From NCBI GenBank assembly GCA_013540605.1, contig JABVCK010000027.1, positions 1 to 64,000 of the forward strand: a stretch of 64,000 bases of DNA. Direction: 5' to 3'. Made by a program: the position numbers and the translations under genes. Below are positions 53,961-64,000 of this stretch, in pieces (position 1 is the stretch's first letter; every line of letters starts with the position of its first letter). The notes under the pieces were generated by a model. That model was not told the origin of the DNA. It ran no database searches and was given only the letters and a program-made list of their open reading frames with translations. The DNA is from Bacillota bacterium (GTDB lineage: Bacteria; Bacillota; Clostridia; Ch29).

Positions 53961-54146
53961 TTAGCACAAAATTCGTTGTTGAACCCACTTATGCTCTTCC
54001 TCCAATTCTGTGTCTTTATATTCTCCAATCATATCCCCTGGGAATGAATATCTACCTGAACAATATATATTCTTACTCGGTTCCTTACACAAATGACCAT
54101 TCCAGCCACTGTCATGCCAGGCTAATCTGGCAGAAAGATGTTGCAT
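53961..54146 (-). CDS. Orphan 61-residue N-terminal fragment
   Basis: Reads MQHLSARLAWHDSGWNGHLC, then KEPSKNIYCSGRYSFPGDMI and a short tail ending at 53961. The block ARLAWHD-GWNG-C-P-N-YC-G-YSFPGDMI looks like the conserved start of much longer defence-island proteins that I cannot name with certainty. Two Cys and one His suggest a metal site. Here it stops after about 60 residues, probably by truncation. It is the last frame of the BREX run. Confidence 0.45.
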   Translation of the reverse strand: MQHLSARLAWHDSGWNGHLCKEPSKNIYCSGRYSFPGDMIGEYKDTELEEEHKWVQQRILC

Positions 54147-54225
54147 AATTTGTCTCCCCCCTTACCGTAATTATAATAAGAGCTATAAATGCAATACTAA
54201 ATTCTGATTACAGAAAAAGGCTGTA

Positions 54226-54933
54226 TTACAGCCCAATAACAACTTCTCCGCCCATTTTATTGAGTTTAAACTTATTAACCTTATGAAAATCGTCTAACCC
54301 TATATCTAACTTAAAAGGGAACATTTCATCCAGCTTATTAACTTCGACAAATTGTAGGTGAGGCTTTCCAGATGCAATAATGTATGCTTCTAACATAAGC
54401 AGTTTTACTTCAATATTCCTAATCTCCAGTGGCTCTATCCGTCTATATTCACCAGGCTTTTCTCCGCCCTCAATAACTCCCCAATCTATAAGCGAGCGAA
54501 CCATCTTGTCAATGGCATACTGAAGAGTAGACCTTTCACCCCACAGCTCATAAATTCTTCTTCTTACCATACTTAAAGAAAATTCATCCTGCAGGTTAAG
54601 CAATTTGCCAGCAGCAGCCGTAAGATTGGCAAAAATAGGATATGCCAGTAGCAACATAGACCAATGAATAGCAATCCTTTCGTTTGTGTCAGCAGTTTTT
54701 AAAAATTCGAGAGCTTTATCTCTAATTGCTGTATGATTCGGATCCACATTTACCCAGGTTCTAACCAATATATTTATAGTCTTCCTCCTATTGTCGCCAC
54801 CCACATCGTCCTTTAAATAATAATCCAAGGCCAGCTTTACGTTCTTAAAGTCTTTTTCCTGACTATAAATTTCGGCTGTCTTATTAAGCCAATTCAATTT
54901 TACAACTCTATCAAAACCAATCCTGTCAAGCAT
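54226..54933 (-). CDS. BREX-associated winged-helix protein (BrxA position)
   Basis: 235 residues; the ATG at 54933 starts one base after the pglZ stop with GAAAGG upstream. Helical throughout, with a winged-helix-like segment ERSTLQYAIDKMVRSLIDWG then VIEGGEKPGEYRRIE. In BREX type 3 loci the gene after pglZ is brxA, a small DNA-binding winged-helix protein, so this is the best fit by position and fold. Direct similarity to BrxA (DUF1819) could not be judged by eye. Confidence 0.6.
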   Translation of the reverse strand: MLDRIGFDRVVKLNWLNKTAEIYSQEKDFKNVKLALDYYLKDDVGGDNRRKTINILVRTWVNVDPNHTAIRDKALEFLKTADTNERIAIHWSMLLLAYPIFANLTAAAGKLLNLQDEFSLSMVRRRIYELWGERSTLQYAIDKMVRSLIDWGVIEGGEKPGEYRRIEPLEIRNIEVKLLMLEAYIIASGKPHLQFVEVNKLDEMFPFKLDIGLDDFHKVNKFKLNKMGGEVVIGL

Positions 54934-54934
54934 T

Positions 54935-56866
54935 TTATTTTTCCTTTCTCATGTGTATAAATGGTACAATTACTTCTTCTATAGCTAATCCACCGTGAGT
55001 AACTATCTTCTTTCCTTCTTTCACAAACGCCAGGTTTTCTTCCGACAATATATAATTATACTTTTTAGGCAGCCCTGCTGCTTCCCATTTAAAGGCTTTA
55101 TATTTCGATATAATTGTATCACAATTCATTTCACTATTATAGAAGCGTACTCTCTCTCCTGGGCTTTCAACGGCTAATCCTTCTTGAAGAGTACCCTGCC
55201 CTACGGCACCAATATTACCGTGATCAGAAGTTATAAAAACTTCAAAACCTTTTGAAAACAGACTCTCAATGAATCTTCGCAAGTTGCCTTTGTTAGCCCA
55301 CAATCGTATATCCTGGTGCATTCCTTCAATTGAAAGCTGCTGACCGTGCATAATATCATCAACCATATTTACTACCATTCCCAATACCCGCAGCTTATTA
55401 TCGTTTAAAATATCTTCCAACCCATCTTCGGAAAACTCTTTAATATTACGCTTAAAAGCAATGCTATTATCATTATAGCCAATATTCCGCCAGAATTTCT
55501 TCCATTGCTTTTCATCATAATTCGTAGATAATACCGTATCAGAAAAGTTTGCAGGTATCTCCCCTGAAAATATAGCCTGCCTGGATACTGATGTCATGGT
55601 TGGAATCCACGCAAAGCATAAATTCTCTTCAAATATATATTTATTGCCTTCATTAAGAGCTTCCTTTATGACATACCAGTCATCCAGTGACATTCCATCA
55701 ATAACAATCATAGCAACATTTTTATTTTCCTGTTTGGGGAAAAGGTGATTAATGTGCCAGGGTATTTTATGGACCATAACTGGAGCTTTTGCATAGGACA
55801 ATGATGCCAGCATACTATAGTTTTCAGAGAGCCACTCCTTAAAGGTTTCTTTTAATAGTTTACCAATTTCTCTGAATTTCTTATTATCCAGGGAGTAGTT
55901 ATTACCCTGGTCATGCTTAATCACCAGGACTTCTGCCCACAATGCTGCAATGCTGAACCAATCCTTATAAGACTTTACATTTTCGATAGCCCTCAAAATT
56001 TTTGCAATACAATTTTCGTACCTGCGTTCTGTACTACCTGCTATGTCATACACAACACCCGATTGCATCCAGGATGGGTATTCCCGTAGCTTAAGCTGCT
56101 TTACAGGTGTTAAGAAATTCTCCTGGAACAGGTTATCTATATAAGCTCTGATTTCATAATTTCCAAAGTCAATGACAGTTTCTACATCTTCTCCATTTGT
56201 TCTTCTGATATATAACTCCCATTGTTCCTGGATAAAATGAAGGAAGGTTCCCTTTCCATCTACTATAGTCTTAACTGGATATTGCTTGAGCTGGCCATTG
56301 CTGCTTATAGCTTCTGCTGCGTATTCAGCGATCAACCTTGGCAGCTCTTCTCCTCTATAGTATAGTGGGATGAAAGTCTTCACCAACTGTTGAAAGTCGC
56401 CAATAATCTCTGGTATTACACCATATACATTTTTTAATATGAAATCCTTTGTCCCTTTATCTCCCAGTTTAGGTCCATTATAATGGGAGTAAACCTTAAA
56501 CAGTTTATCAAATACCTCATTGTAAAGCTCCTTTATCACGGTATAGCTTAATTTAGGAAAAATTTCCCGCAACGTCAGCTCTACAAAGAAACATTTGGAT
56601 CTTATATCATAAGGGATTATCCGCTCTTCCGTATACCTAATCAGAACCTTACTATCGAGTACCTTCCCTCGGTCCAGAATACTGCGGATATTCTCCTCGT
56701 AGTAATATCGAAAAACTTCAGGGTCTTCATAATTGACAATAGAAAACCCAGCCTGGTTTATATATTCTACAATACCCTCTGCTCCAAGAAGGTTGTCAGG
56801 ATCAAAAACCAATATAAATTCATTTTCCTTAAGGTATAGCTTTTCTATTATAATTTCGTTTATCAT
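54935..56866 (-). CDS. pglZ: BREX PglZ-domain protein
   Basis: 643 residues from the ATG at 56866 (GGAG seven bases upstream). The C-terminal PglZ domain is alkaline-phosphatase-like, with the metal residues in NVAMIVIDGMSLDDWYVI, the TMTSVSRQAIFSGEIP segment, and FITSDHGNIGAVGQG; a closing His is in THGGLAIEE. PglZ is a core, essential BREX protein. It follows the helicase by four bases and precedes the BrxA-position gene by one base. The N-terminal half is helical without recognised domain. Confidence 0.9.
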   Translation of the reverse strand: MINEIIIEKLYLKENEFILVFDPDNLLGAEGIVEYINQAGFSIVNYEDPEVFRYYYEENIRSILDRGKVLDSKVLIRYTEERIIPYDIRSKCFFVELTLREIFPKLSYTVIKELYNEVFDKLFKVYSHYNGPKLGDKGTKDFILKNVYGVIPEIIGDFQQLVKTFIPLYYRGEELPRLIAEYAAEAISSNGQLKQYPVKTIVDGKGTFLHFIQEQWELYIRRTNGEDVETVIDFGNYEIRAYIDNLFQENFLTPVKQLKLREYPSWMQSGVVYDIAGSTERRYENCIAKILRAIENVKSYKDWFSIAALWAEVLVIKHDQGNNYSLDNKKFREIGKLLKETFKEWLSENYSMLASLSYAKAPVMVHKIPWHINHLFPKQENKNVAMIVIDGMSLDDWYVIKEALNEGNKYIFEENLCFAWIPTMTSVSRQAIFSGEIPANFSDTVLSTNYDEKQWKKFWRNIGYNDNSIAFKRNIKEFSEDGLEDILNDNKLRVLGMVVNMVDDIMHGQQLSIEGMHQDIRLWANKGNLRRFIESLFSKGFEVFITSDHGNIGAVGQGTLQEGLAVESPGERVRFYNSEMNCDTIISKYKAFKWEAAGLPKKYNYILSEENLAFVKEGKKIVTHGGLAIEEVIVPFIHMRKEK

Positions 56867-56870
56867 GCTA

Positions 56871-59543
56871 TCACTCCATGTAAACAATGCACAGAGGTTT
56901 GAGTACAGGAATAATCACCTTTTCCTTTTCAATCTTAAGCCTCCATGTTTCTTCTTCTTTTCCTATGGATTTTGTCCTATAACTCCTTACACTTTCAAGA
57001 CCTATCCTCTGTGCTGCTTCTTTTCGCAGCTTAAAAGCATACTCGTACTTTGCCTGCTCTTTGGATAGTTTGTTTAAATAATTTTCCTTCATGGTCTCAA
57101 ATAGATTATAAGCATAATCCTTCGCTTTCTCATAAACAAAAGCATAGGTACTGTCTTCAAATTCCTTGTATCCCCTGAATGCAGGGCTTATACCCTCCTT
57201 AAGAAAAGTTTCCCAAAGTATTTTTGAAGAAGCTGCCCTCATAATCCCACTTTCGTTTATAAACAAAGGGAATATCTGTTTATTGGTATCACTGTCGTTG
57301 ATACTTACCTCCCAAAGGGACCAGTATCCTTTCTCATTAGATACCTCTGCAAGCTCCAAAGCTGGTACTTTATGACCTTTTACCCATACAGGTATGTTTT
57401 TCAGCATACTCTTTACTTGTTGGTTGTTCAAATCAATCATAGCAAGCTCAATCATGTTCACTTCTTTGCCCTGGGATAACTGGAAGCTACTGTACATCTG
57501 CTTCAGCCAGCTCTCTATTGGAAGATTGTTGATTCCTGCTACAAGGCTCTTATCGATCACCTTTTCATCCCGCAACAAGCCTTTAATTTCATTGATTTTC
57601 TCTGTCTTATCCCAAACTTCTTTTTCCAGCTTTTCAATATAATAGTCTGCGTTTTTAGGATCGGTAATGCCTCTTATAAAGATGTCAGTAAAGTCAAACT
57701 CTGCGTCGGCACGGTCAAGGACATCTTCCATCTTGTCTACCCCAAACTGCTCAAAAATGGTGGCCAGTTTTTCCTCTAAAACTTCTTTGATTCTGAACTC
57801 TACTGTTTCTGACAGCATGAAATTAAACACATAGACATCCCTTTTTTGTCCAATTCTATCCACCCTACCGATACGCTGCTCAATTTTCATAGGATTCCAG
57901 GGCAAGTCATAGTTAATGACTATGTTTGAAAACTGAAGGTTTAAGCCTTCTCCACCTGCATCGGTAGAAATAAGTATATCGGCAGTTTCCTTGAAATCCT
58001 TCAAAGTTATATTTCTTTCTTCAATGTCCATTGAGCCGTTTAGAGTTGTAATCTTAAACCCTTTGCTTTCAAGGTACTCCTTCAAAAACTGCTGTGTCGC
58101 TACAAATTCGGTGAAGACAATCACCTTAAAGTCTTCGTACTCCATCTGTATCTTATATATAAACTCCAACAGCTTTTCGGCTTTAGTGTCAACATACTGA
58201 TGCTCTGCCTGATTAGCCACAACCAGCATATCTTTTATCTCTTCGATCTCTTTCTTTATATTGAAGGATTGAACCGCAATCAGTTCCTCAACGGTTTCTT
58301 CAGCATCTGCTTCCAATAAATCAGCTTCGCTTAAGCTAACAAGCCTCGTTGCACTGTTTTGGAGTATTTCAAGCCTTCTCTCCAGGTTTTCTCTTATAGC
58401 TCTGGTGCTGCTTGTAACAAGTCTTTGCATCAGCACCATAAGAAATCCGATATAATTCTTCTTCTCTTTTCTTGCCTTGTTATAGCCTTCTGTGACATAC
58501 TTTGTAACCATCTCATATAATTGCTTTTGAAGGCTGTGTCTCTGCTCCCACTCTATATTTACAGCTTTGGTGATCCTATTTTTAAACAGTCTGTTTCCTT
58601 CACCATCTACTGCTTCCCTCTTTTCAGTTCTTATAACATAAGGGCCGACCTGCTCCTTAACAATAGCATTGCTGTCGGGGAAGGCCTCCCGATCCAAAAG
58701 CCGTATTAATCTTAAGAAAGGTTCAGTTTTTCCCTGGTGAGGTGTGGCCGTGAGCAGCAGCAGGTACGGACTGACATCTGCCAGGCTGCTGCCCAGCTTA
58801 TACCTTGCCACATCAGATGTGGAGCCTGCAATCCTGTGTGCTTCATCTATTATGATAATATCCCAGCCCGCAAAGATAAGGCTTCCGAGCCTCTCTTTAT
58901 TGTATTCGTCAATTTTCTCTTTGCTCCAGCCGTTGCGGCGTTCCAATGGTTTGACCGAGTCAAGAGAGCATATAACCTGTGAAAAGTTGGACCATATATT
59001 TCCTTCATCATATATTCTCTTAATGGAGTCAAAGTCTTCAGGCAATACAATATTGAAGTTCTCATTAAACTTCATCTTCATTTCATTATGCCACTGGGTC
59101 ATAAGCCCTTTAGGGCAGACAATAAGGATTCTATTTATTAGTCCTCTTGTCTTAAGCTCTTTTATAATCAATCCTGCCTCTATTGTTTTTCCAAGTCCGA
59201 CCTCATCAGCGATAATGTATCTTATCTTATTGCTGGATAATGCTCGATTAAGTGCATAGATTTGGTGCGGTAACGGGATAATGCTGTCCCCTATAGAAGA
59301 CAAAATGCCGTTTGCAAGCTCATTTTTTATTCGGGCAGAAGTTACAATGTATTTGAAAGAATGGATGCTGAAATCATCTCCAGCATCCACATTGCAAATC
59401 TTATCCTCTGACAAAAAGTATGATCTTTTTTCAACAGGATCAAATACATTGTAAGACTTGTATTCCCACAAATCATTGATTTCAATAACTTTAACCGTCT
59501 TCTTGTTTTCTTTATCTAAAACCCAGTCACCAATTCTGAACAT
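56871..59543 (-). CDS. SNF2-family helicase of the BREX locus (BrxH-type)
   Basis: 890 residues. It begins with a small beta domain (FRIGDWVLDKENKKTVKVIE), then the SNF2 ATPase: Walker A IADEVGLGKTIEAGLII, DEAH box IIIDEAHRIAG, LLLTATPHQGKTEP, and the second lobe with STDAGGEGLNLQFSNIVINY and QRIGRVDRIGQKRDVYVF. In BREX type 3 this is BrxHII. The gene is preceded by a 175-bp region of A-rich repeats and followed closely by pglZ. Confidence 0.9.
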   Translation of the reverse strand: MFRIGDWVLDKENKKTVKVIEINDLWEYKSYNVFDPVEKRSYFLSEDKICNVDAGDDFSIHSFKYIVTSARIKNELANGILSSIGDSIIPLPHQIYALNRALSSNKIRYIIADEVGLGKTIEAGLIIKELKTRGLINRILIVCPKGLMTQWHNEMKMKFNENFNIVLPEDFDSIKRIYDEGNIWSNFSQVICSLDSVKPLERRNGWSKEKIDEYNKERLGSLIFAGWDIIIIDEAHRIAGSTSDVARYKLGSSLADVSPYLLLLTATPHQGKTEPFLRLIRLLDREAFPDSNAIVKEQVGPYVIRTEKREAVDGEGNRLFKNRITKAVNIEWEQRHSLQKQLYEMVTKYVTEGYNKARKEKKNYIGFLMVLMQRLVTSSTRAIRENLERRLEILQNSATRLVSLSEADLLEADAEETVEELIAVQSFNIKKEIEEIKDMLVVANQAEHQYVDTKAEKLLEFIYKIQMEYEDFKVIVFTEFVATQQFLKEYLESKGFKITTLNGSMDIEERNITLKDFKETADILISTDAGGEGLNLQFSNIVINYDLPWNPMKIEQRIGRVDRIGQKRDVYVFNFMLSETVEFRIKEVLEEKLATIFEQFGVDKMEDVLDRADAEFDFTDIFIRGITDPKNADYYIEKLEKEVWDKTEKINEIKGLLRDEKVIDKSLVAGINNLPIESWLKQMYSSFQLSQGKEVNMIELAMIDLNNQQVKSMLKNIPVWVKGHKVPALELAEVSNEKGYWSLWEVSINDSDTNKQIFPLFINESGIMRAASSKILWETFLKEGISPAFRGYKEFEDSTYAFVYEKAKDYAYNLFETMKENYLNKLSKEQAKYEYAFKLRKEAAQRIGLESVRSYRTKSIGKEEETWRLKIEKEKVIIPVLKPLCIVYME

Positions 59544-59566
59544 TTTTAATCCCCTATTCGTAAAAT

Positions 59567-59719
59567 CCTTTTCTTAAATTCACATTTCTTTTCTAATTCT
59601 CTTTAAAAATCATAATTTAAGAAAAGAAAATTTAACTGAAAATGCTTATAATTTAGCGTTTTAGGCAAACTTTATTTCCTAAACATCAAATTTTCTTTTC
59701 TAAAAGGCAATTTTCTTTT
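59567..59719. repeat. Iterated AGAAAAGAAAAT motif before the helicase gene
   Basis: TTTTCTTTTCTAAA-type units lie at about 59587-59598, 59691-59705 and 59707-59722, a looser one at 59568-59580, and an inverted copy (TTAAGAAAAGAAAATT) at 59616-59632. This is the only sizeable gap inside the BREX gene run. The units may be regulator binding sites or a simple A-rich spacer. Confidence 0.5.
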
Positions 59720-60954
59720 CTAAATTAAAACCCATTTAGATTTAGAAAAAGTTCCTATATTCTTTATTGCGTTATCTTTGTTTGCCATTTCTGAAATAAT
59801 ATTGCTAATTTTCTTTTTCTTTTGTTTTTCGTCTAATATATCAGGTAATTTATCAATGAGCAATTCATCAATGTCCTTCCTGCTTGCCGAACCATATTCT
59901 TTTATAAAGTCAATAATCAACTTTTTATAATAATTCTTATCAAACGCTCTATTCTTTATATATTTAGCCTTTTCCCCTGTTGCTGCTGCCACCTGGGATA
60001 CGACATAAATATTTGGGTATCTGCCCTCGACTAAATTTTGTTTCTTCAGGAATTTATACTCGTCTTTTGTTAATGGTGCTTTCTTCTGAACCTTATCCAG
60101 ATACATAACCGTTTTAAGGTCTAAATTCGTATTTCTAATTAATAGCTTTGTATAATTCTCATCAATTATTTCCCCTAAAATTCTTACCTTCACCTTATCG
60201 GGTTGGCTCAAGTCATAGTCTGGCAAAGGGAAATACCTCTGCATTTGCAACAAAAACATTTTCTTTATTCCGCTGCCAATAGTATCAATCATATTCAAGC
60301 TGTCCGAGTAATCTTGCCATTAATAGTCAATTTTGCCTTATCAAGAAAGATAGTATCGTCCCATTTGTCCACTTCATCAGCCAGTTTCGGGTTTTTCTTT
60401 TTATATTCAATTCGGGCTTTCTTGATCGCAGCTTTATCCAAATCTTCTAAAGTTGCACCATAGCAAATTTTTGCGGACCAATCGTCTTTTTTTATCTGAC
60501 TACGAATCTGGTCTATTTCCTGGATATTAAGAGGTCCTAAAGAACTTGCATTCCTTCCATAATAATGTCCATCCCATGAAACAGGAATGCCTTGTGGTGC
60601 AGCAGGAATTTGAAACATCAGTACTCTTCCCTCACTCAAATTCAACTCATAAATTTCTAAAAATGTTATATTATCGGTAGTATGTTGTGATATTTCATAT
60701 TTCAGATTGTCTAAACTGGCTCTGTCCATTCTGTAATTTGTTCCCACAATCTCCCTGCTGTCATCCTTTACTCCAAATATTAACCATGCAAACCTTTTAT
60801 CCTTTAAATTTGCTTCATTGCTCAAAGCAGAAAAATACTTGCCAAGTTTGTTAAAATCATATTGATTTCTGGCTTCCTTAAACTCAAGCCATTCGGTTTC
60901 CGCTGGCATTTTTCTAAATTTGTCAAGCAACTGCTTTAGTTCTTGATCAGTCAC
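59720..60954 (-). pseudogene. Schlafen/AlbA_2 gene with internal deletion
   Basis: The first frame (60954-60295, 219 residues) has the AlbA_2/Schlafen fold: ETEWLEFKEARNQYDFNKLG, FAWLIFGVKDDSREIVGTNY, SWDGHYYGRNASSLGPL, and ends at KLTINGKITRTA, where intact relatives go on. The second (60298-59720) starts NMIDTIGSGIKKMFLLQMQR, the RecG-like ATPase C-terminal motif, followed by a helix-turn-helix end. The usual 100-150 residues between (the HATPase-like core) are missing and the frame shifts. Both fragments may still be made, but the original protein is gone. Confidence 0.75.
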
Positions 60955-60970
60955 TTATCCCACTCCTTTA

Positions 60971-63520
60971 TCAATCCCCTATTCTTGTCAGAGCATTATC
61001 ATAGTACATAAGTATGCTTGGATCCTCCTGTACCACACTTTCCGGCATTCTTTCACCAATATTAACAATGGTTTTATAATCTTTTTCCTTCCAGCAGTGC
61101 TTGAACCCTGCCCTAATAGCTTCTGTCCTAAACACTTTGAGCTTTCCTTTGCTGTTTCTGTACTCGTCAAATTCCTTTAAGAGCTTTTTGTCTCTTAATT
61201 TTTCAAGGTCAGACTGCTTATTAACATCAGGCACATACCATTTACCATGCTCGTCCTGCAGGAAGTTTTCTTCGAGCAAGTCCCTTAATTCTGGCATTTT
61301 CTCATATTTGAGCTGTTTCAATTCCTGAAGGAATTTGGGTTGTATATCTTGGTATGTCTGCGGTGTCGCAAGCTCTTTATGGAGCCATTGTATCGCCGTT
61401 TTTTCATCCAGTACGAACAGCAATAGCTGTTCATTTAAGTCCTGTGTCATTCTTTTTGCATCGTATATGCTCACCTGTCCAGATAAAAAATACATACCGT
61501 CACGTTCTGGAAATCTTTGTTTGAGTCCCAGATAAAAATCGGCTGAACCTAAAGGTACTGTTGCACCTTTTTGGATATGGAAAGCTACCATACTATCATA
61601 TAGCAAGTATTTCTGCCTTTCTGGAATAATATCTAACATACCTTTATTCTCTATTACTACAGGCAGCTTTGACAAATGCTCTCGGATAAAATCCCAAATA
61701 CCTTCTTCCGTCCCCGCTTCTATTAAGAACCTTTGAACGAATGCATCCTTTGGTTTGTATGCAGAAATTATTAAATCCTGCTTGACAGCCGTTGTTGATG
61801 TAACTTGCTTGAAACTTCCTTGTTGCTTATCAAGAGTTTTTACGTTAGCAATTACGAAACCTGCTTTCAATATAGCCTCCTGTATAGCGTTCCAAACACT
61901 ATTCTTGGAATTATGGAACTCTACTGTCATCCACCTTCCAGGCTTTAAAATTCTATAGCATTCAGAAAATGATTTCTCCATGAGTTCTTGATATTCATTC
62001 AAACTTTTATTCTGAACCTTATTAATTATGGCCTCGGTTGAATTATTTGTAAACACTTTAAGCCATGCTTCCCATATAAAATTGAGTTCAGAATACATTA
62101 AATTATCCCCAAATGGAGGATCAGTGAAAATATAATCCACAGAATCATCTTTTATGTTGCTTAAATCTTTACATGAGCCACATGAAACTACAGCATTGTT
62201 ATCTTTAAGCATTAAGGCAAATGCTTTTTTAAAATCGTCAATTTTACCACGAAATACTTTAAATACATTAGTTTCTGCAACTAATGAGGCAACATACAAA
62301 GTACCACTAACAGGACCATTACCTCTATTCCCAAGATTATATCTTGCCAGTTTGGAGCAAAGTGTAACCGCTACTGATTGGAACACTAATAGGGCTTTGT
62401 GATAATCCCTCATTTTTTGACATAAAGCTGATAAAATAATAAGATTTCGTTTTGTATAAAAATGATGTACATTGCTAAATCCATGCGATGTAATTGGCTG
62501 CTGGGTATTATATCCATTTGGCAATTCTGCTATTGGAACGAATGTCTTAAAATCCATCTCCTCAATTTTCTTAAGGACCTCAAAATCAAATTCATCTGGC
62601 TTCTTCATGTATCTCTTTCTTCCTACAAAATAGTAGATAAGCACTGGCACTTGTTTTGCTTGTCTTATGGTTCTATTTAATAATGAATCATAAACAGTTA
62701 TAAAGGCTTTTTCAGAATTATTTTTTGTTATACCTACACCACAATGGGGACAGGCGAGTTCTTCTTTTATACTATTTTCTTCTTTATTAATTGCATTTTC
62801 CCAATATACTATCTCCTGGCTACAATTATGGCATATAAATACATCTGACCACACAGTATAATTTATTTTACCTTTAACTTGTTTTCCTGTAATCTCTTTT
62901 TGCGGTTCACCTTTTATAGTGTGAATTGTTTCATACATCCACCCATATTCTTTTTCAATTTCGTCAATAATACGAACTATTTGGCTCTCAAATACTTGCA
63001 AATCAACAAGGGAATTATAATTATATGCAATAAATGTTGCTGCAGGAGAAAGATCATTAAGAATTGCACGTCTTGCTCCCCATTCGATTACTTTACTGTC
63101 CTTTTTAAATTCTTCCTCAACACTAATACCAAACACAGCATCAGGTTTGCTGCACATTCCAGCAGCTACACCCGTCATACCTGTACCACAAAAACCATCA
63201 AATACAATATCTCCTGGTTTTGTATAATGTAATATATATCTCATTATAGCTTTATGTGGTACTTTTGTATGGTAAGAATGGGCATTATAAATTGGATCAT
63301 TTTTCCCTTCACTCACATCTGCCGTATATGGTTCTACATTATAATCATCATTCTCTTCATCATATGGCTTTCCATTCTTCTCAATAAACTCATTTATAAA
63401 TGGGTTTGGACACGCCGTATAATACGGCGGATCCGACAGTTCAATAATATCTTCATCCTTGCCAATAGGAAATCCCTCTATATCTCTTACTTTGTCTAAA
63501 ATCTCTTTCGTGAGTTCCAT
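60971..63520 (-). CDS. pglX: BREX adenine-specific DNA methyltransferase (PglX, COG1743-like)
   Basis: 849 residues; the ATG at 63520 has GGAGGAA upstream. The N-terminus has LSDPPYYTACPNPFINEF and the SAM-binding motif VFDGFCGTGMTGVAAGM (about 110). A zinc ribbon (CHNC, CPHC at about 240-275) follows, and the catalytic DPPF lies in DYIFTDPPFGDNLMYSEL (about 480). This is the COG1743/DUF1156-type layout used as PglXI in BREX type 3. It is 13 bases after the BrxC-like gene and 16 bases before the AlbA_2 gene. Confidence 0.85.
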   Translation of the reverse strand: MELTKEILDKVRDIEGFPIGKDEDIIELSDPPYYTACPNPFINEFIEKNGKPYDEENDDYNVEPYTADVSEGKNDPIYNAHSYHTKVPHKAIMRYILHYTKPGDIVFDGFCGTGMTGVAAGMCSKPDAVFGISVEEEFKKDSKVIEWGARRAILNDLSPAATFIAYNYNSLVDLQVFESQIVRIIDEIEKEYGWMYETIHTIKGEPQKEITGKQVKGKINYTVWSDVFICHNCSQEIVYWENAINKEENSIKEELACPHCGVGITKNNSEKAFITVYDSLLNRTIRQAKQVPVLIYYFVGRKRYMKKPDEFDFEVLKKIEEMDFKTFVPIAELPNGYNTQQPITSHGFSNVHHFYTKRNLIILSALCQKMRDYHKALLVFQSVAVTLCSKLARYNLGNRGNGPVSGTLYVASLVAETNVFKVFRGKIDDFKKAFALMLKDNNAVVSCGSCKDLSNIKDDSVDYIFTDPPFGDNLMYSELNFIWEAWLKVFTNNSTEAIINKVQNKSLNEYQELMEKSFSECYRILKPGRWMTVEFHNSKNSVWNAIQEAILKAGFVIANVKTLDKQQGSFKQVTSTTAVKQDLIISAYKPKDAFVQRFLIEAGTEEGIWDFIREHLSKLPVVIENKGMLDIIPERQKYLLYDSMVAFHIQKGATVPLGSADFYLGLKQRFPERDGMYFLSGQVSIYDAKRMTQDLNEQLLLFVLDEKTAIQWLHKELATPQTYQDIQPKFLQELKQLKYEKMPELRDLLEENFLQDEHGKWYVPDVNKQSDLEKLRDKKLLKEFDEYRNSKGKLKVFRTEAIRAGFKHCWKEKDYKTIVNIGERMPESVVQEDPSILMYYDNALTRIGD

Positions 63521-63533
63521 ATCGCTTCCTCCG

Positions 63534-64000
63534 TCATTTCAATATGATCCTAACTTTGCTTTCATCTTTACCCTTCGTTAGTTCACGGACATACTTCTCA
63601 AATCTCGTCCTGATATCCTCTACAGTGACAGGACCATCTCCCGATATTGCTTTTTTCATATCCTCAACAAGCACTTCAACCTTTTCAAGTCCCTTCATCA
63701 AAGTGTTTACGCCAGATATGAAATTGCCGTCAATAGCGTCAGGCAATCTCCTCGTCTCAAGCAGTTTATTTATGACATTTTGTTGCTCTGATTTGAGGAA
63801 GGCAATATTCTCCTTCACCATTGGATCCTCAACACTGGTGACAATAATTTCTGTCCACTCTTTATATATCCTGTCAATGTCGTCTTCGATGCCATCTAAA
63901 ACCCCGTGGACAGGCTGATTATTCTCTGAAGGATTAAACTGGCAGTGAGGACACATAAATTTACCTTCCATATCTTGCTGGGTAAGATTATAACAAGTTC
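63534..64000 (-). CDS. C-terminal end of a probable BREX P-loop ATPase (BrxC-like), cut by window edge
   Basis: The frame is open to the window edge, so the ATG at 63971 is not the true start. The visible 155 residues begin TCYNLTQQDMEGKFMCPHC and QFNPSENN, a Cys-x15-CPHC zinc ribbon, followed by helices (GIEDDIDRIYKEWTEIIV; EDIRTRFEKYVRELTKGKDE). A zinc ribbon near the C-terminus fits the very long BrxC/PglY-type proteins of BREX type 3 (DUF6079). The ATPase domain itself lies outside the window. Confidence 0.55.
   Translation of the reverse strand, partial: TCYNLTQQDMEGKFMCPHCQFNPSENNQPVHGVLDGIEDDIDRIYKEWTEIIVTSVEDPMVKENIAFLKSEQQNVINKLLETRRLPDAIDGNFISGVNTLMKGLEKVEVLVEDMKKAISGDGPVTVEDIRTRFEKYVRELTKGKDESKVRIILK

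Follow-up and report, generated by a model that had tools for sequence, protein, structure and literature searches.

A complete type III BREX operon with a broken Schlafen-type gene between pglXI and brxHII

The DNA analysed here (the window: 64,000 nucleotides, positions 1-64000 of a 236-kb contig in a 36-contig draft genome) runs at its right end into what we can say with high confidence is a type III BREX operon, complete and probably functional, in which the insert between pglXI and brxHII represents a Schlafen-type backup effector gene that later lost its GHKL domain. Reading the contig beyond the window's right edge gives the gene order brxF-brxC-pglXI-(AlbA_2)-brxHII-pglZ-brxA, with all genes on the minus strand and the six core genes intact. 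An earlier note, made from the letters of the window, had described a single-strand run of genes in the order published for BREX type 3, and this description holds: every gene it named is there, in position, spacing and (minus) strand, and all defining genes follow the published order, with profile matches to BREX families. The left part that the note had found missing, namely the N-terminus of brxC and the whole of brxF, lies on the contig past position 64000, so that the open reading frame at 63534-64000 turns out to be the C-terminus of a 1223-aa BrxC, with brxF next to it.

The core operon

The core genes are as follows.

67207-67683 of the contig (L003 17208-17684), minus strand: brxF, 158 aa; PADLOC BrxF (PDLC02497), 183 bits; motifs GASGNGKT and LVLDN
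63534-67205 of the contig (window part 63534..64000), minus strand: brxC, 1223 aa; PDLC02482, 1724 bits over residues 1-1223; Pfam DUF6079
60971..63520, minus strand: pglXI (brxXI), adenine methyltransferase, 849 aa; PADLOC PglXI (PDLC02541), 1344 bits; N6_N4_Mtase
56871..59543, minus strand: brxHII, SNF2-type helicase, 890 aa; PDLC02500, 1229 bits; SNF2 and Helicase_C
54935..56887, minus strand: pglZ, long form, 650 aa; PADLOC PglZ (PDLC02556), 807 bits; Pfam PglZ (PF08665), 95 bits, above cut-off
54226..54933, minus strand: brxA, DNA-binding protein, 235 aa; PADLOC BrxA (PDLC02437), 279 bits

Each of the six proteins finds its best PADLOC match in its own BREX family, over full or near full length and with near-complete model coverage for BrxF, BrxC, PglZ and BrxA, and the Pfam domains (DUF6079, N6_N4_Mtase, SNF2 with Helicase_C, PglZ) agree with these assignments. 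The profile search that the earlier note had proposed for PglZ and the methyltransferase thus returned BREX families in both cases, and the P-loop ATPase whose absence upstream would have spoken against its reading is present, in the form of a BrxC with Walker A (GNYGTGKS) and Walker B (LIVVDELLD). Reading the sequences by eye, we find the signature motifs of BrxF and BrxC intact, along with those of PglXI (motif I DGFCGTG, motif IV DPPF), BrxHII (ADEVGLGKT, DEAH, QRIGRVDRIGQ) and PglZ (VIDGMS, TSDHGN). In addition, PglXI has a four-Cys element (CHNC...CPHC) in its inserted target-recognition domain, in keeping with published work, in which type III methyltransferases carry such a domain with four cysteines (PMC12839542). 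Note that PDLC02500 is a joint BrxHI|BrxHII model; it is the SNF2 and Helicase_C domains that set BrxHII apart from the Ski2-like BrxHI.

The same canonical order recurs across related loci, and on a BrxC tree the window's protein sits beside those of two other type III loci (L094 and L098) with 100% support. Might the operon belong to another defence family, such as DISARM, Dpd or Zorya? We rejected this candidate: the competing DrmD and DpdE profiles reach 316 and 168 bits on the BrxHII protein against 1229 for BrxHI|BrxHII, scores four- to sevenfold lower, and the neighbouring genes have BREX families as their best matches.

Judging by family membership and by published work on other BREX types, from which the roles of the parts are carried over, the locus most likely works as a type III BREX, with PglXI marking the host's own DNA and unmarked phage DNA being excluded by the set of BrxC, BrxF, BrxA, BrxHII and PglZ. 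PglXI would methylate adenine at recognition sites in host DNA; when phage DNA enters without this mark, BrxC, BrxF and BrxA would act with it; and BrxHII, a Snf2-type motor, together with PglZ, a metal-dependent nuclease-like effector, would then block that DNA. On this reading, a gene for a Schlafen-type backup effector was inserted between pglXI and brxHII, its GHKL domain being lost later by internal deletion; such a module, if intact, might serve as a backup RNase effector.

A Schlafen-type gene as cargo

The insert between pglXI and brxHII comprises the following features.

60973..60984, minus strand: 12-bp direct repeat GAATAGGGGATT, copy 1, in the last codons of pglXI
60295..60954, minus strand: Schlafen AlbA_2 half, 219 aa, with a frameshift stop at its end; Pfam SLFN_AlbA_2 (PF04326), 62.8 bits
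59720..60298, minus strand: C-terminal half of winged-helix type, in another frame, assigned by alignment with homologues of 551-572 aa
59544..59719, minus strand: AT-rich spacer, 176 bp, part of the insert, with several direct and inverted repeats of the AGAAAAGAAAATT type
59548..59559, minus strand: 12-bp direct repeat GAATAGGGGATT, copy 2, just upstream of brxHII and containing its ribosome-binding sequence

What the earlier note had taken for an extra AlbA_2 gene is present, and its AlbA_2 domain is confirmed, but it consists of two open reading frames that are the two ends of one broken protein of 550-570 aa, from which about 140 codons including the GHKL domain are missing and in which the frame is shifted. 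The full-length homologues that we aligned (551-572 aa) were found on three plasmids and in two more genomes of this class; in two of them (L037 and L033) Pfam places HATPase_c_4, the GHKL domain, in the middle of the chain, and this domain is absent from the window's gene. The join of the halves reads ...GCTTGAATATGATTGAT..., that is, a stop followed directly by the in-frame ATG of the second half. We read the break as one deletion with frameshift. With the GHKL domain deleted, the protein has probably lost its activity as a regulated enzyme, and as a regulated single-chain protein the gene is probably dead.

There are other ways to account for such a gene. The two halves might constitute a two-gene form, in which an AlbA_2 nuclease and a winged-helix protein are made separately through coupled re-initiation (TGA-AT-ATG): neither half contains a further stop or frameshift, the second ATG comes directly after the first stop, and the AlbA_2 half still has the Schlafen motif LEFKEA. 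We nevertheless regard this as quite improbable, given that the entire GHKL core is missing, that close homologues are otherwise one chain, with no equivalent break seen in the AlbA_2-family homologues of other genomes, and that a recent deletion explains the intact halves equally well. An assembly error is more improbable still: although the genome is a draft in 36 contigs, the region sits well within its 236-kb contig and has no long repeats on its flanks, and assembly rarely drops about 410 bp of unique sequence. A possible relic of recombination occurs in another sequence (L039 2409-3353), where an open reading frame apparently fuses an HsdS-like start to a C-terminal half of the AlbA_2 family.

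With the reading of a single deletion in place, how did the gene come to lie within a BREX operon? The sequence GAATAGGGGATT occurs only twice in the 64-kb window, exactly at both edges of the insert, and a shared 12-mer was found in 16 out of 20000 random pairs of like-sized segments drawn from the locus. A search for close relatives by PglZ among contigs yielded one locus only, L019, and here, at the closest homologous junction, the pglXI stop lies 1 bp from the brxHII ATG (the PglXI segment is 78% and the BrxHII segment 73% identical); rejoining the window's flanks at GAATAGGGGATT would yield a similarly tight junction. Because the repeat marks both edges and pglXI and brxHII abut in nearby relatives, the 1.4-kb insert, AT-rich spacer included, is most likely a later addition of cargo. 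The single spacer that had stood out within the gene run is thus real (59544-59719) but belongs to the insert rather than to BREX; a consensus scan of it for a promoter or terminator gave nothing above shuffles.

To place the insert in context, we mapped genes in type III loci of the same class and phylum, leaving open reading frames of fewer than 60 aa uncounted; note that this is a sample, not a full survey. The pglXI-brxHII interval holds extra open reading frames in 13 of 28 loci with canonical order (the window included) and none in the remaining 15; six loci have them between brxC and pglXI, and the other core intervals of the sampled loci were free of them. Cargo kinds include KwaB, an OLD-type ATPase with TOPRIM, an AAA_15 ATPase, an Mrr endonuclease, SIR2-like with HerA, AAA_13, SMC-like, DUF3644 and RAMP-type proteins, and several cargo proteins are without Pfam match. 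Besides the window, the interval is occupied in L016, L018, L075, L076, L080, L081, L083, L085, L089, L105, L106 and L107, by genes that are unrelated and often of defence type (for example, KwaB in L018, OLD-TOPRIM in L089, SIR2 plus HerA in L083). The comparison indicates where type III operons tend to acquire extra genes. We also asked whether AlbA_2 might be a constant part of type III, and rejected the idea: it is not among the cargo of the other sampled type III loci, where the slot is empty or holds other genes. The gene that had been singled out as a special feature of this type 3 locus is accordingly cargo in a variable slot rather than a new component. As the 12-bp repeat was not found at cargo edges in the other type III loci compared, insertion by way of a repeat is suggested for the window's locus only.

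BrxF and the flanks of the operon

In a 2026 survey, type III BrxF is classed as an inactive STAND NTPase (PMC12839542), whereas a paper on the structure of BrxL goes no further than to note in BrxF an AAA+ motif belonging to the ORC/DnaA clade (PMC10164562). The BrxF of this operon has the Walker A motif GASGNGKT at its N-terminus and matches Pfam AAA at 22.4 bits, over the cut-off. A canonical Walker A is found in 20 of 46 BrxF proteins (this one and 19 of 45 others), the remaining 26 being without one, so that the published description as an inactive NTPase does not fit close to half of the sampled proteins. On the BrxC tree the state of the motif changes at least three times, keeping in mind that a quick tree and long branches limit the exact count. 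Where PglZ length could be measured, all 12 loci with Walker A have a long PglZ (> 600 aa), and loci without it divide into 11 with a short and 11 with a long PglZ. One could go further and imagine that the pglXI-brxHII gap is a standing exchange slot, filled via short direct repeats with backup modules for defence, such as Kiwa-like, OLD-TOPRIM, Mrr, SIR2-HerA, Schlafen and other genes, and that BrxF is an ATP-using switch in some type III systems and inactive in the rest, which would divide the type into two mechanistic classes; we put this forward as a tentative and rather doubtful proposal.

Two features flank the operon.

53961..54146, minus strand: N-terminal remnant of an SF1 helicase, 61 aa (LSARLAWHDSGWNGHLC...), homologous to the N-terminus of a protein of about 1200 aa; not BREX
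67993-69753 of the contig, plus strand (opposite to brxF): IS transposase, 586 aa; its open reading frame begins some 310 bp upstream of brxF

The island had been drawn to begin at 53961, and its left end has to be moved: 53961-54146 encodes the SF1 helicase fragment and no BREX component. Intact homologues, helicases of roughly 1200 aa, occur on plasmids in the neighbourhood of DNA methyltransferase genes, and no such fragment was found in other type III loci. On the other side, two further full or near-full copies of the IS transposase exist in the genome at 100% identity, and because of these identical copies the element has probably moved recently. The genes beyond the transposase look like housekeeping genes when read from sequence (glutamine-fructose-6-phosphate aminotransferase, for example).

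Do these neighbours mean that the type III operon as a whole is in decay? In this scenario, the broken Schlafen gene, the downstream helicase cut to 61 aa and an upstream IS element that may have removed the promoter would all be symptoms of the same process. The split AlbA_2 gene, the helicase fragment downstream of brxA and the recently active transposase 0.3 kb upstream of brxF are compatible with it, as is a simple promoter scan of the region upstream of brxF, which turned up nothing promoter-like on that gene's strand. Against this, the six core frames are full length with their motifs intact, and brxF retains its ribosome-binding site and about 300 bp of sequence between itself and the transposase frame. 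We therefore think decay of the operon unlikely and keep to the reading of a functional system with a damaged insert: a BREX-associated Schlafen module that decayed while the core operon stayed intact fits a backup role, not an essential one. The same genome contains a second, complete BREX, of type I (brxA-brxB-brxC-pglX-pglZ-brxL; contig C11, about 69124-82104; L041 9124-19998 and L043 1-2104).

Comparison with known systems

The locus is an already known kind of system, an ordinary type III BREX, and its unusual parts (the Schlafen insert with its repeat, the cargo slot and the BrxF P-loop) are modest. Compared with types I and II, type III BREX is described as having been explored less (PMC12839542), and the locus adds an intact example of it, one that coexists with a complete type I system. 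The locus shares with type III the six core genes, their order, strand and profile matches, the Snf2-type helicase and a PglXI with an inserted target-recognition domain bearing four cysteines; it differs in the broken Schlafen insert between pglXI and brxHII and in a BrxF that retains Walker A, the loss of which would be expected of an inactive STAND (iSTAND) protein.

The insert itself has two known counterparts. The 2026 survey describes Schlafen RNases fused with a winged helix and with a GHKL-type domain (a minimal histidine kinase), which it finds in close linkage with BREX and systems related to it across at least 1017 taxa (PMC12839542), and since it reports such linkage, an AlbA_2 gene within a BREX operon is already known. 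The AlbA_2 and C-terminal parts of the window's gene align end to end with these proteins and occupy a position of the published type inside a BREX operon, whereas the GHKL domain is deleted and the frame broken in this copy. The other counterpart is the mod - AlbA_2 - helicase cassette of Sulfitobacter and Phaeobacter plasmids, in which an AlbA_2 protein of full length is encoded between genes for a site-specific DNA methyltransferase and a DEAD/DEAH helicase (L032 10508-16750, L033 10331-16750). Common to both are the AlbA_2 protein family and its place between DNA methyltransferase and helicase genes; unlike the window's locus, the cassettes use other methyltransferase and helicase families, have no PglZ or BrxC annotated nearby and encode the protein at full length.
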